DNA from: Phycisphaerae bacterium
GTDB taxonomy: Bacteria > Planctomycetota > Phycisphaerae > Sedimentisphaerales > Anaerohalosphaeraceae
Length of the DNA: 18,831 nucleotides
Direction: 5' to 3'
Assembly: GCA_007121565.1 (NCBI GenBank)
Contig: SKKI01000133.1
Coordinates: forward strand, 1-18,831
Part shown: piece after piece, positions 3,097 through 12,502 of the stretch
Numbering within the stretch: the first letter of the stretch is position 1
Layout: every line of letters starts with the position of its first letter
Notes under the pieces: model-generated
Databases searched by the model: none
Told to the model about the DNA's origin: nothing
Seen by the model: only the letters and a program-made list of their open reading frames with translations
Translations under genes and position numbers: made by a program

Positions 3097-3115
3097 ACGG
3101 GGTATTGTACCCCGT
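3097..3115. repeat. Perfect 8-bp inverted repeat, hairpin or operator
   Basis: ACGGGGTA (3097-3104), loop TTG, TACCCCGT (3108-3115). Just upstream a weak promoter-like pair is visible (TTGCCG near 3070 and TTATAC overlapping the left arm, 18 bp apart). The palindrome would therefore sit at a start site. Its role is unknown. It lies about 180 bp upstream of kdsB. Confidence 0.4.
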
Positions 3116-3186
3116 CAGCGGTCAAAAGAAAAGTGCCGGGCGTAAAAAAATCTCACCGCGCATCGGCGCCGGCCATAAAGTCAAGG

Positions 3187-3215
3187 TTGACAGGGCCAGG
3201 CCGGTGTCCTATGAT
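3187..3215 (+). promoter_or_regulatory. Near-consensus sigma70 promoter driving kdsB and downstream genes
   Basis: A perfect TTGACA (3187-3192), a 17-bp spacer and TATGAT (3210-3215) give a predicted start near 3222 and a leader of about 70 nt before the kdsB GTG. It is the best promoter match noted in the window. It probably also drives the ATPase, TOPRIM-like and pyrG genes, because no long gap follows until after pyrG. Confidence 0.6.
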
Positions 3216-3290
3216 GTTTCGGCAGTGGATTCGGGATGTTTTGGAGAGGTTCAACAGTCAACCGGAAAAAAGCTGCAAGGTATGGTATAA

Positions 3291-4037
3291 GTGAAAACAA
3301 TCGTGGTCATCCCCGCCCGTTACGGGTCAAGCCGGATGGGCGGCAAGGTTCTTGCAAAAGAAACAGGGAAATATCTTGTACAGCACACCTATGAACGGGC
3401 GCTGCAGGCGCGACGTGTCAGCGAGGTGCTGATTGCCACCGACCACGAGCGGGTGCTGGAGGCCTGCCGGCAGTTCGGGGCGCAGTGCGTGATGACCGGC
3501 GCCGAGCACCAGAGCGGCACCGACCGGGTGGCCGAGGTCGCGGCCGGGCGGGATTGCGATATTGTCATCAATCTGCAGGCCGACGAGCCGGAAGTTGAGC
3601 CGGATTATATCGATCAGATCGCCGCGCTGCTGGCCGAGCGCCCGGAGGCGAAGATGGCGACGTTGCTGGCGCCGTTTGATACGGCACGGGACATTGCCAA
3701 TCCTAATATTGTCAAGTGTGTGACCGACGAAAAGGGCTACGCGTTGTATTTTTCGCGACTGGCGATTCCGTATGACCGCGACCGCGCGGGTATCGGGCCG
3801 TTGGATGTGTATCGGCGTCATCTGGGCATCTATGCCTATCGCAAAGAGTTTCTGCTGATTTACACCACGCTGCCCAAGAGCCGCCTGGAACAATGCGAAC
3901 AGCTCGAGCAGCTTCGGGCGCTGGACAATGGGTTTCGGATTCTGACCGCCACCGTGCCGCGCGCCTGGGACGGCATCGACACGCTGGAGCAGTACGAGGC
4001 GTTTGTGCAGCGACAAAAAAATGCGGAAAAAGGATAA
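3291..4037 (+). CDS. kdsB: CMP-Kdo synthetase (3-deoxy-manno-octulosonate cytidylyltransferase)
   Basis: Transfers CMP from CTP to Kdo, giving CMP-Kdo for lipid A glycosylation, in the cytoplasm. The 248 residues equal the family's usual length. Recognisable blocks: the nucleotide-binding IPARYGSSR (7-15), HQSGTDR (73-79), LQADEP (95-100), YFSRLAIPY (153-161), HLGIYAYR, SRLEQCEQLEQLR (198-210) and GIDT (228-231). D98 and D230 match the two Mg-binding aspartates. Two motif positions deviate: the usual LPGK is MGGK (16-19) and the usual QGDEP is QADEP. The start is GTG at 3291, fitting the conserved N terminus, with only a weak AAGG upstream. The stop is 3 nt before the ATPase start, so the genes are likely coupled. 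PyrG, which makes the CTP substrate, lies downstream of the inserted pair. Confidence 0.93.
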   Translation: MKTIVVIPARYGSSRMGGKVLAKETGKYLVQHTYERALQARRVSEVLIATDHERVLEACRQFGAQCVMTGAEHQSGTDRVAEVAAGRDCDIVINLQADEPEVEPDYIDQIAALLAERPEAKMATLLAPFDTARDIANPNIVKCVTDEKGYALYFSRLAIPYDRDRAGIGPLDVYRRHLGIYAYRKEFLLIYTTLPKSRLEQCEQLEQLRALDNGFRILTATVPRAWDGIDTLEQYEAFVQRQKNAEKG

Positions 4038-4040
4038 GCC

Positions 4041-5201
4041 ATGTATGTTTCCGGACTGAGATTGCAGAACTGGAAAAATTTCAGAAATGTGAACGTGAAA
4101 CTTCGCAATCGGATGTTTCTCGCAGGACCGAATGCGAGTGGGAAGTCCAACTTTTTGGATGTATTTCGTTTTTTAAGAGACGTTGTCAAGGCCGGTGGTG
4201 GACTTCAGCAGGCCGTACAGGATCGAGGCGGTCTGTCAAAAATCCGGTGTTTGGCGGCGCGTCAAGAGCCGGATATTGAAATTGAAGTCCATTTATCCGA
4301 TACCGAATCGATTGAGACTTCCCCTGTGTGGAGATATGCCATCGGGATTACACAAGAACCTCGGGGACGTCGGCAGCCTTATCTTCGTTTTGAGCGCATT
4401 TGGCACAACGGTGAGTTGATTCTGGACCGACCGGATGATTCAGATCGACAGGATGATTTGCGACTTACCCAAACCCACTTGGAACAAATTAGTGCAAATG
4501 AGAAGTTCAGGGAAATTGCTAATTTTTTAAATAGTGTTTTATACTTACACTTAGTTCCGCAATTGGTGCGAAACCCTGAAGCATTTTCCGGCCCCAATAT
4601 TGCGGGGGATCCCTATGGTCGCAATTTTCTGGAACGCGTAGCCCGCACGCCCGAAAAAACACGTAAGGCGAGGCTTCGAAAAATTGAGGATGCTTTGATT
4701 AAGGCAGTCCCTCAATTGCGGCGACTGACTGACATTAAAGATGAGGCGGGCATACCTCACTTGGAAGCAGTCTATGAACATTGGCGTCCTCAAGGCGCTA
4801 AACAGCGTGAGGATCAGTTTTCTGACGGAACTTTACGGTTAGTGGCATTTTTCTGGAGCTTAATGGAAAAAAGCGATAATATTCTGTTGATGGAAGAACC
4901 GGAATTGTCATTGAATGCGGCCATCGTACGATTATTACCGTCGATAATATATAAATTTCAAAAAAAGAAATCAAGGCAAGTGATTTTGAGTACACACAGC
5001 GCCGAGTTGTTGGATGATAAGGGTATTGATGGCAGTGAAGTGCTTGTTCTCACACCTGCCGTCGAGGGAACCGAGATCAAGGTTGCCTCTGATATTGAAG
5101 AAGTTCGCTTGCTTTTGGAAGGAGGCTTTTCGATTGCCGAGGCGGTATTACCGAGAACAGAACCCAAGGCAATGCAGCAGGGGTTTTTGTTTGATGTCTG
5201 A
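4041..5201 (+). CDS. AAA15/AAA21-like ABC-type ATPase, first gene of a putative defence pair
   Basis: A predicted ATPase of the RecF/SMC-head type (COG4637/COG1106-like), 386 residues. The N terminus MYVSGLRLQNWKNF is the usual opening strand of this group. Walker A is GPNASGKSN (29-37), the signature motif FSDGTLR (260-266), Walker B with catalytic acid ILLMEEPE (281-288) and the switch histidine STHS (317-320). The stretch between Walker A and the signature is only about 220 residues and shows no long coiled coil, so this is a compact head, not an SMC. The start is 3 nt after the kdsB stop, with AAGGA (4029-4033) as ribosome site. The end overlaps the TOPRIM-like gene by 8 bp. Codons are visibly AT-richer than in kdsB or pyrG, suggesting transfer. 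By analogy with PARIS AriA or OLD ATPases it may sense or regulate the partner. That role is inference. Confidence 0.85.
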   Translation: MYVSGLRLQNWKNFRNVNVKLRNRMFLAGPNASGKSNFLDVFRFLRDVVKAGGGLQQAVQDRGGLSKIRCLAARQEPDIEIEVHLSDTESIETSPVWRYAIGITQEPRGRRQPYLRFERIWHNGELILDRPDDSDRQDDLRLTQTHLEQISANEKFREIANFLNSVLYLHLVPQLVRNPEAFSGPNIAGDPYGRNFLERVARTPEKTRKARLRKIEDALIKAVPQLRRLTDIKDEAGIPHLEAVYEHWRPQGAKQREDQFSDGTLRLVAFFWSLMEKSDNILLMEEPELSLNAAIVRLLPSIIYKFQKKKSRQVILSTHSAELLDDKGIDGSEVLVLTPAVEGTEIKVASDIEEVRLLLEGGFSIAEAVLPRTEPKAMQQGFLFDV

Positions 5202-5790
5202 TCGACCTGTCAATCTTGTTTTTGAAGATGACTTGTCCGGTGTGGTGTTGCGACGATTATTGTCCGAGATCCGACCGGGTTGTCAAATTGGTCTTAATTA
5301 TCGTACAGGTGGAAAAGGAAACATAAAGCGTAAGTTAATGGGCTTCAATAATGCCGCAAAGGGAATGTCCTATTTGATTTTGGTGGATTTGGATACTGAA
5401 TATGAATGCCCGCCGTCGCTGCTTAGTGACTGGTTTGTTCATAACAAGCATCCGAATTTGCATTTTCGCATAGCCGTCAGAGAAGTCGAGTCTTGGCTGT
5501 TGGCGTCACGAGGTGCATTTTCGAACTATTTAGGAATTTCAAAAAGCGAAATCCCTGAAATTTCAGACCACATCCAAAGCCCCAAAGAACTGCTGTTAGA
5601 GATTGTAAGCAAGTCAGGCAAAAAAAGTATTCGAGAAGATATAGTGCCGCATATCAGAACGACAGCAAAGGTTGGACCGAATTATAATCACCGATTAATA
5701 GAGTTTGTCAATCAACGATGGGACTACCATGAAGCAATAATGTGTTCGGAAAGTCTTGGTCGCACGGTTGATTATTTGGGAAAAATATAA
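5194..5790 (+). CDS. TOPRIM-like (DUF4276-like) protein, partner of the ATPase
   Basis: A 198-residue protein. The N-terminal strand carries a conserved acid in LVFEDD (E11, D12, D13). A second strand reads LILVDLD (61-67) with a D65-x-D67 pair, followed by FRIAVREVESW (91-101) with R96, E97 and E99. An acid followed by DxD in this order is the pattern of TOPRIM-like folds, and the ensemble resembles the DUF4276 group that often neighbours AAA ATPases. A conserved-looking TTAKVGPNYNHRLIEF (156-171) lies near the C terminus. I chose ATG at 5194 because it overlaps the ATPase stop by 8 bp and begins just before the first strand. Longer reading upstream has no protein-like character. If catalytic, it would be a metal-dependent nuclease or phosphoryl-transfer effector. 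Fold and activity are inferred from motifs only. AT-rich like its partner. Confidence 0.75.
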   Translation: MSDRPVNLVFEDDLSGVVLRRLLSEIRPGCQIGLNYRTGGKGNIKRKLMGFNNAAKGMSYLILVDLDTEYECPPSLLSDWFVHNKHPNLHFRIAVREVESWLLASRGAFSNYLGISKSEIPEISDHIQSPKELLLEIVSKSGKKSIREDIVPHIRTTAKVGPNYNHRLIEFVNQRWDYHEAIMCSESLGRTVDYLGKI

Positions 5791-5820
5791 ACATTCGTTA
5801 TCCTATTTGAAGAAGACATT

Positions 5821-7590
5821 ATGACTGATAACAAACATATATTGGCACAGTTGGGCAGTGTTTCAACGGATGAGTTTTTTCTGCCGCTGCCGAAAGGCTA
5901 CCAAAAGGGAAAAACCCGTTATGTCATTGTCGTCGGGACGGTGATGAGCGGGTTGGGCAAGGGGATATTTTCCTCGTGTCTGGCCAAGCTGCTGCAGGAC
6001 AAGGGGCTTAAGGTCGCGCCCATCAAGCTGGAAGGATACCTGAATATTGACTCGGGGACGCTGAATCCGTTTCGGCACGGCGAGGTGTTCGTACTGGATG
6101 ACGGGATGGAAACGGATATGGATTTGGGCACGTACGAGCGGATGCTGGATCAGAATCTGACGCGGGCCAATTTTTCCACCAGCGGCCAGGTTTACCGTTC
6201 GGTGCTGGACAAAGAGCGCCACGGCGAATACCTCGGGCGTGATGTGCAGATGATCCCGCATGTGACCGGCGAGGTCAAATTGCGGCTGCGTGAATTGGCG
6301 GTCAAGGCCGATGCCGATGTGGTGTTCGTGGAAATCGGCGGCACGGTCGGCGATCTTGAAAACGCCTTCTACATCGAGGCGATGCGGGAGCTGGCCTATG
6401 AGGAAGGACCGCATAGCTGCTGTTTTGTTGCGCTGACGTATATTCTTGAGCCGCACGCCCTGGGCGAGCAGAAGTCCAAGGCCGCCCAGTTGGGCATCAA
6501 GCAGTTGATGCAGACCGGCATTCAGCCGGATATCATCGCCTGCCGGGCGGAGAATGAAGTAACCGAAACAGCGCTTCAAAAAATCAGTGTCTTTGGCAAC
6601 GTACCGGCTGAGCGCGTCTTCAGTATGCACGACTCGGCCAGCATTTATTCGATTCCGGCGATGCTGCGTGACTGCGGGCTGGACTTTGAGGTGCTGCGGA
6701 TGCTGCGCATTGAGGATCGTACCAAGCTTCGTTTTGAGCGAAAAGAATGGGAGCGTTGGTGCGACTTTACCGACAAGCTCGGCAAAGAAAATAAGGAAGT
6801 GACCATCGGCATCACCGGCAAATACACCTCCGTCCGCGACAGCTATGCCTCAATCCTGAACGCCCTGGAACATGCCGGCATTCATCTGGGCTGCACCGTC
6901 AATGTCAACTGGATTGAGACCTCTGAGGTCACGGATAAAAACGCCGACCGGCTGCTGAACCAGGTGGACGGCATTATTGTCCCCGGCGGCTTCGGGTCGC
7001 GGGGGATGGAGGGCAAGATTTCAAGCGTCCGCTACGCGCGCGAGAATCATATCCCCTATCTGGGTTTGTGTTTGGGCTTTCAGGCGGCGGTGATCGAATA
7101 CGCCCGCAACGTCTGCGGTCTCAGCGATGCCGACAGCACCGAGGTCAATCCGCAGTGCAAGGCGCCGGTCATTGATGTGCTGCCCGAACAGAAAAAGATC
7201 GAGGGACTCGGCGGCAATATGCGGCTGGGCGGCCAGGATGTCACCATTAAGCCCGACACCCTTGCCTGGCGTCTGTTCGGCAAGGTCGAGTCGGTGCGGC
7301 TTCGGTTTCGCCATCGGTATGAGGTGGACCCGCAGTATATCGATACGCTTGAGCAGAAAGGACTGGTCTTTTCGGGCAAGTCGCCGACCCAGCCGATCAT
7401 GCAGATTCTTGAATTGCCCGATCATCCGTTTTTTATGGGTACACAGGCCCATCCGGAATTGACCAGCCGGCCGCTGCAGCCCCAGCCGATGTTTGTTGCC
7501 CTGGTCGCCGCGGCCATTCGGCGGCGATACGCCCAGGCCGATGCGGCCTTGCCGGAAGATGCGGTACGGGCGGTGTGCCGGGTGTGTTGA
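5821..7590 (+). CDS. pyrG: CTP synthase (glutamine-hydrolysing), divergent form with N-terminal extension
   Basis: Converts UTP to CTP using ATP and glutamine. The protein has 589 residues, longer than the usual 535-550. The synthase domain starts at about residue 33 with the P-loop GTVMSGLGKG (39-48), then HGEVFVLDDG, MIPHVTGEVK, EIGGTVGD and GEQKSKAAQ, which keeps the two lysines of the UTP site. The glutaminase domain has nucleophile C417 in GLCLGFQ and H544/E546 in AHPE. It differs from the near-universal KxDPYxNxDxGTMxP motif, reading KLEGYLNIDSGTLNP (69-83). Roughly 31 extra residues precede the domain, and I see no plausible closer start. The start ATG has GAAGAAGA just upstream, 30 bp after the TOPRIM-like gene. 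CTP is the substrate of KdsB upstream, so pathway logic explains linkage to kdsB. Confidence 0.95.
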   Translation: MTDNKHILAQLGSVSTDEFFLPLPKGYQKGKTRYVIVVGTVMSGLGKGIFSSCLAKLLQDKGLKVAPIKLEGYLNIDSGTLNPFRHGEVFVLDDGMETDMDLGTYERMLDQNLTRANFSTSGQVYRSVLDKERHGEYLGRDVQMIPHVTGEVKLRLRELAVKADADVVFVEIGGTVGDLENAFYIEAMRELAYEEGPHSCCFVALTYILEPHALGEQKSKAAQLGIKQLMQTGIQPDIIACRAENEVTETALQKISVFGNVPAERVFSMHDSASIYSIPAMLRDCGLDFEVLRMLRIEDRTKLRFERKEWERWCDFTDKLGKENKEVTIGITGKYTSVRDSYASILNALEHAGIHLGCTVNVNWIETSEVTDKNADRLLNQVDGIIVPGGFGSRGMEGKISSVRYARENHIPYLGLCLGFQAAVIEYARNVCGLSDADSTEVNPQCKAPVIDVLPEQKKIEGLGGNMRLGGQDVTIKPDTLAWRLFGKVESVRLRFRHRYEVDPQYIDTLEQKGLVFSGKSPTQPIMQILELPDHPFFMGTQAHPELTSRPLQPQPMFVALVAAAIRRRYAQADAALPEDAVRAVCRVC

Positions 7591-10540: not shown

Positions 10541-11044
10541 ATGAAGCAACACATTCATTCGACCGATCTCCAAGAAGATCAGCGGTATATGCGGATGGCG
10601 ATTGATCAGGCCTTTATTGCCGAGGAAAACGGCGATGTGCCGATTGGGTGCGTGATTGTGTTCGAGGGGCGGGTGATTGCCAAGGCCTACAATCAGCGTC
10701 AGCAGTTGAACGATCCGACAGCCCATGCCGAGATTATCGCGTTGACCCAGGCGTCCGAGTTTGTCGGCAACTGGCGGCTGCACGGCTGTACAATCTATGT
10801 GACACTGGAGCCGTGTCCGATGTGTGCCGGGGCGTTGGTGCTGGGCCGCCTGGATCGGCTGATTTACGGCACGGACGACCCCAAAACGGGTGCCTGCGGA
10901 TCGCTTTATAACATTGTTCAGGATCCGCGTCTTAACCATCGCCTGGAGGTAACGGCCCATGTGCTGCAGCCGGATTGCCAGGCCCAGCTTCAGGCATTTT
11001 TCCGTCGGCGTCGAGACGAAAATAGCCGCTTTCCGGATGGGTAA
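10541..11044 (+). CDS. tadA: tRNA-specific adenosine deaminase (A34 to inosine)
   Basis: Deaminates the wobble adenosine of tRNA-Arg(ACG) to inosine. The 167 residues match the family. The zinc site is complete: TAHAEIIAL gives H62 and the proton-shuttle E64, and PCPMCAGAL gives C92 and C95. [11 protein letters not shown] (30-40), [10 protein letters not shown] and [16 protein letters not shown] (108-122) are typical TadA blocks that distinguish it from CMP/dCMP or guanine deaminases. The frame is open further upstream, but ATG 10541 begins at the usual distance before the core and has GGAG about ten bases upstream. It sits 22 bp after murG and probably shares its transcript. No SRP RNA, sometimes found beside tadA, is visible downstream. 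Confidence 0.92.
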
Positions 11045-11061
11045 TCGTTTGAAATAAGGCG

Positions 11062-11090
11062 TTGTGTTTTCTGTGCAGCTCTGGTATAAA
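11062..11090 (+). promoter_or_regulatory. Promoter of the membrane protein and dehydratase genes, extended -10
   Basis: TTGTGT (11062-11067), a 17-bp spacer ending in TGG, and TATAAA (11085-11090) form a promoter with an extended -10. The predicted start near 11097 gives a leader of about 65 nt. That leader begins with a hairpin, CAAGGGC (11102-11108), TT, GCCCTTG (11111-11117). It ends with AAAGGAG (11147-11153) before a TTG start. Confidence 0.45.
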
Positions 11091-11160
11091 AGCAGAAAAG
11101 ACAAGGGCTTGCCCTTGCCGAGCACGTTGAAATGTCCGTTTTTTCGAAAGGAGACTGCCT

Positions 11161-12477
11161 TTGGCAGCCCGCTATTCGCTACGCGTAATCTGGGAAGATT
11201 TGGCGCTGCCGGAACTGGCGCACGCATTTCGTCTGGCGATCGGGCCGAACAAGCTGGCGATTGCCTTTCTGGCGGTTGCTTCGATCGGCCTGGCCGGCTA
11301 TCTTCTGGATCGCTGCACCCGTACGGTCGTGGTGCATCCCGATTCAACGCAAAAGCGCTCCGGCCAAATCGGGGCAGTAACACTGACCACCAGGACAGAA
11401 CTTGAGGCGTATCTGCTGGATGCCGATAGTATACACGACTTTTTAGAGCGTCATCAGGGTCAGGCTCCGCGAGAGGGGGTGTTTTCGACGCTGTGGTCAT
11501 TTTCATCCGGGCGTTTCAATGACGCAAGCCGCCAATTGTTCGACTTGGGTCAGGCCAGTTTTTTCAGCAATATGGAGCATGTGTTCATTAATTTGTGGCT
11601 TTGTCTGCGGGCGATTGTCTGGGCGATTCGGTTTCATCCCTGGTACAGCGCGATTTTCTTTACCTTTTCCTTTGTGGTGCTGTGCTTTGCCGGGGGCGGG
11701 GTGTGCCGGTGTGCGGCATTGGAGAACGCGCGTAACGAAAAACCGGGCTTTTTTGAGGCGCTTGGCTTTGCGCGTCAAAAGTTTGCCTCGCTGCTGTCGG
11801 CGCCGCTGCTGCCTGCGGGCCTGATGCTCGTGCCGGCTGTTCTGGTGATGGCTGTCGGGATGCTGGGAGCGATTCCCTGGGCCGGGGAGCTGCTGATCGG
11901 GCTGCTGTTTGGCGTGCTGGCGTTGCTGTCGCTGGCGGTCGTGGCGATGGTGGTCGGCACTACGGCCGGCGGCTTGCTGCTGTTTCCGGCGGTTGCGTAT
12001 GAAGGCACCTCCGGCCGGGACGCCATCGGGCGTGCGGTCAGTTATGTCTTGAACAGGCCTTTGTGGATGTTGTTCTATATTTTTGGGGCTGGTCTTTTTG
12101 GCACGTTTTTTTATGTGGTGCTGCGCCTGCTGGTGTTCTGGGTGTTGAAAGTTACCCACGGGCTGCTGGCCGGCGGGATGACCCTGGTCGGCGGCGATAT
12201 GGAGAAGTTGGATCGGCTTTGGTCGGGACCCACACTGTATTCACTGATGAACCAGACGGCCGGGGCCGCTACCTGGTCCGAATCGATAGGCGGATTTTTT
12301 GTGTACCTGTTTTTTTTATTTCTGGTCGGCTTGCTGGCGGCCTACGTCATCAGCTATGTGTTTTGCGCGTCCACGATTGTGTATGCCCTGATGCGAAAAA
12401 AGGTCGACCAGGTTCAGCCCCAGGATATCTATATCCCGCTTGCTTATGCGGGTATCAATGAGCGGTGTGAATCATAA
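11161..12477 (+). CDS. Multi-pass membrane protein of unknown function
   Basis: A 438-residue protein with no family I can name. A hydrophobic segment lies near residues 32-49. A soluble stretch of about 90 residues (51-140) follows. Then come clustered membrane segments at roughly 144-158, 161-180, 210-235, 243-278, 298-330 and 379-412. A conserved-looking cytoplasmic-type phrase, YEGTSGRDAIGRAVSYVLNRP (280-300), sits between segments and recalls membrane proteins with repeated 'sequence before TM pair' motifs. The start is TTG, supported by AAAGGAG (11147-11153) seven bases upstream and by the absence of a nearby ATG. The end is close to, or overlaps, the start of the nucleotide-sugar dehydratase, so the two are co-transcribed. 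This hints at a role in envelope or polysaccharide assembly, which is inference only. Confidence 0.75.
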   Translation: MAARYSLRVIWEDLALPELAHAFRLAIGPNKLAIAFLAVASIGLAGYLLDRCTRTVVVHPDSTQKRSGQIGAVTLTTRTELEAYLLDADSIHDFLERHQGQAPREGVFSTLWSFSSGRFNDASRQLFDLGQASFFSNMEHVFINLWLCLRAIVWAIRFHPWYSAIFFTFSFVVLCFAGGGVCRCAALENARNEKPGFFEALGFARQKFASLLSAPLLPAGLMLVPAVLVMAVGMLGAIPWAGELLIGLLFGVLALLSLAVVAMVVGTTAGGLLLFPAVAYEGTSGRDAIGRAVSYVLNRPLWMLFYIFGAGLFGTFFYVVLRLLVFWVLKVTHGLLAGGMTLVGGDMEKLDRLWSGPTLYSLMNQTAGAATWSESIGGFFVYLFFLFLVGLLAAYVISYVFCASTIVYALMRKKVDQVQPQDIYIPLAYAGINERCES

Positions 12478-12502
12478 GCCAACCTTGACGGGAATTGCAG
12501 CG

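Follow-up and report, generated by a model that had tools for sequence, protein, structure and literature searches.

ATPases coupled to Toprim domains recur among described phage-defence and toxin-antitoxin systems. In PARIS, AriB is held by AriA, is freed on a phage trigger and then cleaves tRNA, as described in the accessible text of PMC12409363. Two pairs of a Toprim toxin and an AAA antitoxin are reported in the available portion of PMC10440598 to have been validated by neutralisation, and in the excerpts at hand these AAA-neutralised TOPRIM_OLD toxins (NetFlax) and AbiL share a two-gene ATPase and Toprim layout. OLD and GajA, in turn, carry the ABC ATPase and the Toprim domain, with an E..DxD..ExE-like layout, in one polypeptide. 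HEC-01 belongs to the Hma-embedded candidates (HECs), and embedding was the means by which these were found (PMC12988326). The available text of that paper reports several HECs as active, names HEC-06 and not HEC-01, and cites as the source of the HECs a preprint (Payne et al. 2024) known here through that reference; the accessible part of PMC12724379 lists HEC-01 for a gut bacterium. The literature searched, which covered neither preprints nor many journals, showed no mechanism for HEC-01, nothing on DUF4276, and nothing on Sedimentisphaerales with a defense system or on a kdsB-pyrG hotspot. Described here are two overlapping genes, A and B, from contig SKKI01000133.1 of a Phycisphaerae bacterium (GCA_007121565.1), the whole 18,831-nucleotide stretch analysed being termed the window. 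Together they form a candidate defence pair that is real, conserved and already catalogued, and that occupies an unusual place in an operon, between kdsB and pyrG.

By sequence comparison, the pair is a member of the PADLOC candidate defence system HEC-01, which is catalogued though little studied. The top PADLOC family is HEC-01A for A (PDLC04180, E-value 2.9e-157, residues 1-380) and HEC-01B for B (PDLC04194, E-value 8.5e-59, with a query started one codon early), and the two genes adjoin, A before B; the models are those of PADLOC-DB 2.0.0. An earlier note on this DNA had called the pair an undescribed defence system, a claim that lapses with these matches. The setting differs from that of HEC-01, as the pair has kdsB on one side and pyrG on the other and is not embedded in Hma; this kdsB-pyrG location of close HEC-01 copies in the order is what is new here. 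The gene structure that the note proposed was borne out, with two open reading frames (ORFs) in different frames overlapping by 8 bp on the forward strand, the first encoding a compact ABC/AAA15-like ATPase and the second a 198-residue protein. Pfam matches A to AAA_21 (E-value 4.6e-35) and AAA_15 (E-value 1.9e-14), both above cut-off. Its Walker A, signature and H-switch motifs are as the note had them, while its Walker-B-type motif departs from the usual form in having Glu (E285-E286, invariant in an 18-sequence alignment) at the Asp position. The structure model of A is poor, with a predicted local distance difference test score (pLDDT) of 48.6.

Both genes are under purifying selection, with frames intact, as judged from comparison with a congener (G003). 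The ratio of nonsynonymous to synonymous substitution rates (dN/dS) is 0.139 for B and lower for A (Table 1), next to 0.155 for kdsB and 0.074 for pyrG, values that are rough at a dS of 1.0-1.4. Chance ORFs were rejected as an explanation of A and B on account of these low ratios and the many homologues, which number at least 8000 protein matches for A and 462 for B.

The Toprim fold anticipated for B is present in its AlphaFold2 model (pLDDT 92.3). Two aligners, including Foldseek, returned the Toprim domains of OLD and PARIS AriB as the top solved-structure matches, the best Foldseek match being the C-terminal (Toprim) domain of OLD, which agrees with the proposed parallel between this pair and both systems. 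The E...DxD...RExE acidic layout was located at E11, D65/D67 and E97/E99. Provided no gap precedes E11, this residue aligns with AriB E26, BpOLD E400 and GajA E379, which the available parts of published papers identify as active-site residues. As modelled, B is a Toprim-fold protein with a conserved acidic site. Its sequence is less readily placed: up to an E-value of 1, Pfam returns DUF4276 (PF14103) alone, with an E-value of 3.2e-4 and 21.4 bits, below the 30.2 cut-off, and neither DUF4435 nor RloB. The suggestion that B is DUF4276-like rather than DUF4435 is upheld to that extent, and PF14103 is annotated in the database for some close relatives (e.g. P0003, P0007). A search of PDB sequences with a B profile gave a single match, taken as chance (E-value 1.3), and one with B alone gave a Crov588 match (E-value 1.3e-4 over 29 residues) plus one other.

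The pair can be set apart from each of its better described counterparts. PARIS differs in that B has no DUF4435 match, AriB is absent from the 12 PADLOC families that B matches, and A is far closer to HEC-01A than to AriA (E-value 1.5e-33). OLD and GajA are alike in domain content and acidic layout and differ in having in one chain what is here divided between two genes; Gabija differs further in that the window pair is flanked by kdsB and pyrG, with no GajB-type helicase. From AbiL it differs in the weak match of A to the AbiLi model (E-value 2.4e-20) and the lack of a Pfam RloB match to B.

Table 1. Positions of genes, motifs and other features in the window
Feature	Position	Strand	Basis or conservation
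Gene A, HEC-01A, ABC/OLD-type ATPase, 386 aa	4041..5201	+	PADLOC PDLC04180, Pfam AAA_21, dN/dS 0.046
Walker A GPNASGKS of A, aa 29-36	4125..4148	+	G29, P30, N31, A32, G34, K35, S36 invariant in 18 sequences
ABC signature FSDGTLR of A, aa 260-266	4818..4838	+	F260-R266 invariant in 18 sequences
Walker-B-type ILLMEEPELSL of A, aa 281-291	4881..4913	+	E285, E286 invariant in 18 sequences
H-switch LSTHS of A, aa 316-320	4986..5000	+	H319 invariant in 18 sequences
A/B overlap ATGTCTGA, 8 bp	5194..5201	+	ORF coordinates
Gene B, HEC-01B, Toprim-like (model), marginally DUF4276, 198 aa	5194..5790	+	PADLOC PDLC04194, AlphaFold2 model, fold matches
VFED (E11), first Toprim acidic motif of B	5218..5229	+	E11 invariant in 23 sequences
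Toprim DxD motif VDLD (D65, D67) of B, aa 64-67	5383..5394	+	D65 invariant in 23 sequences, D67 not
REVE motif (E97, E99) of B, aa 96-99	5479..5490	+	23 sequences: E99 invariant, E97 conserved at 90% or more
kdsB, upstream operon partner	3291..4037	+	NCBIfam PRK05450.1-5 E 4.3e-85; TIGR00466 kdsB E 3.8e-65
pyrG (CTP synthase), downstream partner	5821..7590	+	NCBIfam CTP synthase E 1.4e-202
Promoter-like site upstream of kdsB, TTGACA-17-TATGAT, 11/12	3187..3215	+	Consensus match only

Within the order, A is matched at an E-value of 1e-10 in 13 of 148 relatives. Full-length copies of 67-100% identity occur in eight genomes, including that of the window; six further matches are weaker (26-45% identity), and a remnant in G123 retains 77% identity over residues 1-88. 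All eight intact copies and the remnant lie directly upstream of pyrG, and all nine also follow kdsB directly apart from the G147 copy, which is separated from kdsB by another ORF. Two additional planctomycete copies from a wider scan (L079, with ORFs between kdsB and A, and L088) bring the site to 10 intact copies and one remnant, and the 10 form one branch of a quick tree of 84 rows, with a Shimodaira-Hasegawa-like approximate likelihood ratio test (SH-aLRT) value of 99. The 8-bp A-B overlap recurs in eight of nine planctomycete loci examined, window included, L083 being without an ATG there. Occupancy is nonetheless patchy. A kdsB tree built for 44 genomes, a gene tree rather than a species tree, requires at least seven changes in the presence of the pair, the G123 remnant included. 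Occupancy differs even within a genus: G025 carries the pair, and its congener G027 has a kdsB-pyrG gap of 15 bp and a pyrG identical in its first 46 bases. In the A+B tree, two families stand apart at 84/95 when only these are compared, and four f1 rows are separated from all others at 54/69 (L079 and L088, without a stated family, being counted with f7), support that does not decide between vertical descent and exchange at the site.

In wider samples, too, the genes are paired, mostly in other surroundings. A class-level sample yielded a match to A at an E-value of 1e-60 in 12 of 397 genomes, and in the eight of these that come from other families (46-55% identity) B adjoins A, with kdsB and pyrG absent within 1.5 kb on each side. 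The wider scan of species genomes, which retained the 80 best loci out of 414 relatives, found B directly 3' of A in 79, the DNA of the remaining locus (L118) ending with A; in two loci (L121, L122) B is split into two pieces. These relatives span archaea, cyanobacteria, acidobacteria, bacteroidetes, deltaproteobacteria, elusimicrobia, chloroflexi and others, and neither kdsB nor pyrG was found in the flanking DNA examined of 72 of the 80 loci. Two of the HEC-01A copies (L098 and L118) share one deltaproteobacterial contig (JAFDKH010000081).

Some of these distant copies lie beside restriction-type genes. The order methyltransferase-A-B-DEAH was seen in four loci of three phyla, namely Nitrospinota (L092), Bacteroidota (L126 and L143) and Chloroflexota (L154). 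The upstream DPPY methyltransferase matches PADLOC type III models in all three tested (L092, L126, L154). The downstream DEAH-box proteins, about 940 residues long and 61-80% alike among themselves, gave no PADLOC match at an E-value of 1e-20 in the four tested, and none has a plain Walker A pattern. From their sequences the two flanking genes are probably Mod and Res, the latter name being putative. Across 112 scanned neighbour proteins (from 131 nearest ORFs, one per side, of 71 loci, with L148-L157 left out), Pfam ResIII occurs in six and MTase_III in four. At an E-value of 1e-20 these proteins matched 137 PADLOC models, versus 13, without MTase_III, for 113 pyrG-neighbour proteins, a tally of models rather than proteins between sets that differ in design. 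For the pyrG control, as many as three ORFs per side were taken in 28 genomes (149 ORFs), of which the 113 scanned came from 22 genomes, with L215-L220 left out; neighbour ORFs were delimited as the longest reading frames rather than with a gene finder, and related cyanobacterial loci inflate some neighbour counts.

The adjacent HEC-01A and HEC-01B matches, the B model, the constant pairing, the restriction-type neighbours and the purifying selection together favour the view, held here at a probability of about 0.6, that A and B form a HEC-01-type two-gene abortive-infection module with an ATPase sensor or antitoxin and a Toprim nuclease effector. By analogy with PARIS and the AAA-neutralised Toprim toxins, A would be an ABC ATPase akin to OLD and AriA, holding or gating B, presumably in a complex, and B a separate metal-dependent Toprim nuclease. 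A phage-linked trigger would probably lead A to release or activate B, which could then cleave nucleic acid, whether RNA/tRNA or DNA, so that growth or phage replication stops. The restriction-type neighbours in other phyla suggest that the pair serves as a backup for blocked restriction. In this lineage, A and B are probably transcribed from the kdsB promoter, and may have been gained, lost or replaced between kdsB and pyrG. The association with defence neighbourhoods that the earlier note looked for is accordingly divided: it is seen beside some relatives in other phyla, whereas the window pair itself adjoins kdsB and pyrG, and the other genes named in the window belong to metabolism, pili, the envelope and two-component signalling. 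Alternatively, the two proteins would stay together as one stable complex, with direct cleavage of phage DNA as in OLD and Gabija, and no antitoxin would free an RNA-cutting effector. The OLD Toprim domains as best Foldseek matches, the resemblance of the ExE layout of B to the OLD metal-B residues as given in the accessible literature, and the type III-like methyltransferase genes beside the pair in other phyla make this a tentative alternative of appreciable weight, though clearly second to the abortive-infection module.

It is unlikely that A and B are a toxin-antitoxin pair, selfish or linked to stress, that persists through addiction and defends only incidentally. This reading could draw on the AAA-Toprim pairs reported, in the available text, to neutralise as toxin-antitoxin, on the overlapping A-B gene order and on the shortened A remnant in G123, but the frequent clean absence at the site is unlike what strong addiction would lead one to expect, and the restriction-type neighbours in other phyla also speak against it. 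Most improbable is a housekeeping accessory of cytidine triphosphate (CTP) or 3-deoxy-D-manno-octulosonate (KDO) metabolism. KdsB consumes CTP and PyrG produces it, all eight intact close copies in the order and the two further planctomycete copies lie between their genes, and in four of eight loci A and kdsB share 4 bp. Against this, 135 of 148 order relatives are without a match to A at an E-value of 1e-10, 72 of 80 wider-scan loci are without kdsB or pyrG in the flanking DNA examined, and unrelated genes fill the same interval. The earlier note had reasoned that confinement to one housekeeping operon with vertical inheritance would count against defence; the close copies do all share the operon, yet they are patchy, and copies in other phyla show neither kdsB nor pyrG in the flanking DNA examined. 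The abortive-infection module remains the preferred reading. The B model with its named acidic residues and the copies flanked by methyltransferase and DEAH-box genes make HEC-01 open to experiment.

The kdsB-pyrG gap is shorter than 200 bp in 77 of 112 measurable relatives, 200-449 bp in four and at least 450 bp in 31, of which HEC-01 fills six; genomes with kdsB and pyrG on separate contigs and most of those with a cut kdsB match stand outside this count, and with them the HEC-01 holders G138 and G147. Large gaps occur in 14 of 55 nearer relatives, versus 4 of 41 for the control interval kdsA-rSAM (radical SAM; Fisher p 0.066), or in 10 versus 4 of the same 38 genomes (p 0.14). With one control interval and a difference that is not significant, the data are suggestive, and do not establish, that kdsB-pyrG is a hotspot. 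Other fillings include SIR2-like (three), FRG/PDC-S15 (three) and DUF5677 (two tested) proteins, one PD-(D/E)XK protein, a 23S_rRNA_IVP protein, GH127 glycosidases and unknown families, on the operon strand wherever a clear ORF was seen; in a sample chosen on that strand, 6 of 40 filling proteins matched PADLOC at an E-value of 1e-5. Between 3900 and 5950 of the window, the search for mobile-element traces gave short imperfect direct repeats within genes and no inverted repeats, and there was no match among 72,556 plasmid records at an E-value of 1e-40 or 50,697 phage records at 1e-20. The location suggests that defence-type genes can sit in a core operon without a visible mobile element, where they would escape surveys restricted to defence islands. 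It is a long shot that the interval is a standing slot for defence or accessory genes swapped without a visible recombinase, perhaps by recombination in the core genes on either side. A nuclease effector would then be expressed in step with CTP-using and CTP-making enzymes, and its trigger could be a phage-disturbed nucleotide supply.

Several fillings were noticed by eye or from sequence. Proteins that begin with a '[W][VL]A..DILGF'-like stretch and look by eye like one family recur in L179 (882-1694), L158, L174, L176 and, loosely, L066; the L179 protein has no Pfam match and no PADLOC match at an E-value of 1e-5, as is also true of a 361-residue protein in L171 (806-1888). Lipoprotein-like proteins of about 177-191 residues recur in different genera (L063, L065, L167, L168). 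Two transposase-like ORFs beside a SIR2-like gene in L163 (1001-2136; genome G088) are the sole mobile-element trace noticed in kdsB-pyrG intervals.

The window's genome holds a second pair, on contig C260 (L001, 305-2093), again with an 8-bp A/B overlap. Its ATPase matches HEC-01A (E-value 2.6e-134), its partner is DUF4276 above the Pfam cut-off, and it lies just upstream of a HAD-like and a primase-like gene, both so named from sequence alone. At the window locus, A starts 3 bp past the kdsB stop (4037) and pyrG (5821) 30 bp past that of B. Consensus matching found eight promoter-like sites in 3100-6000, versus 3.0 expected, and the G+C content is 0.44-0.45 over A and B and about 0.57 in the flanks. 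Within the window, PADLOC was applied to A and B. An ORF at 11161-12477, without a Pfam match, adjoins a Polysacc_synt_2 protein, with AT skew to -0.36 over 11001-12500, and perhaps encodes a membrane polysaccharide protein.
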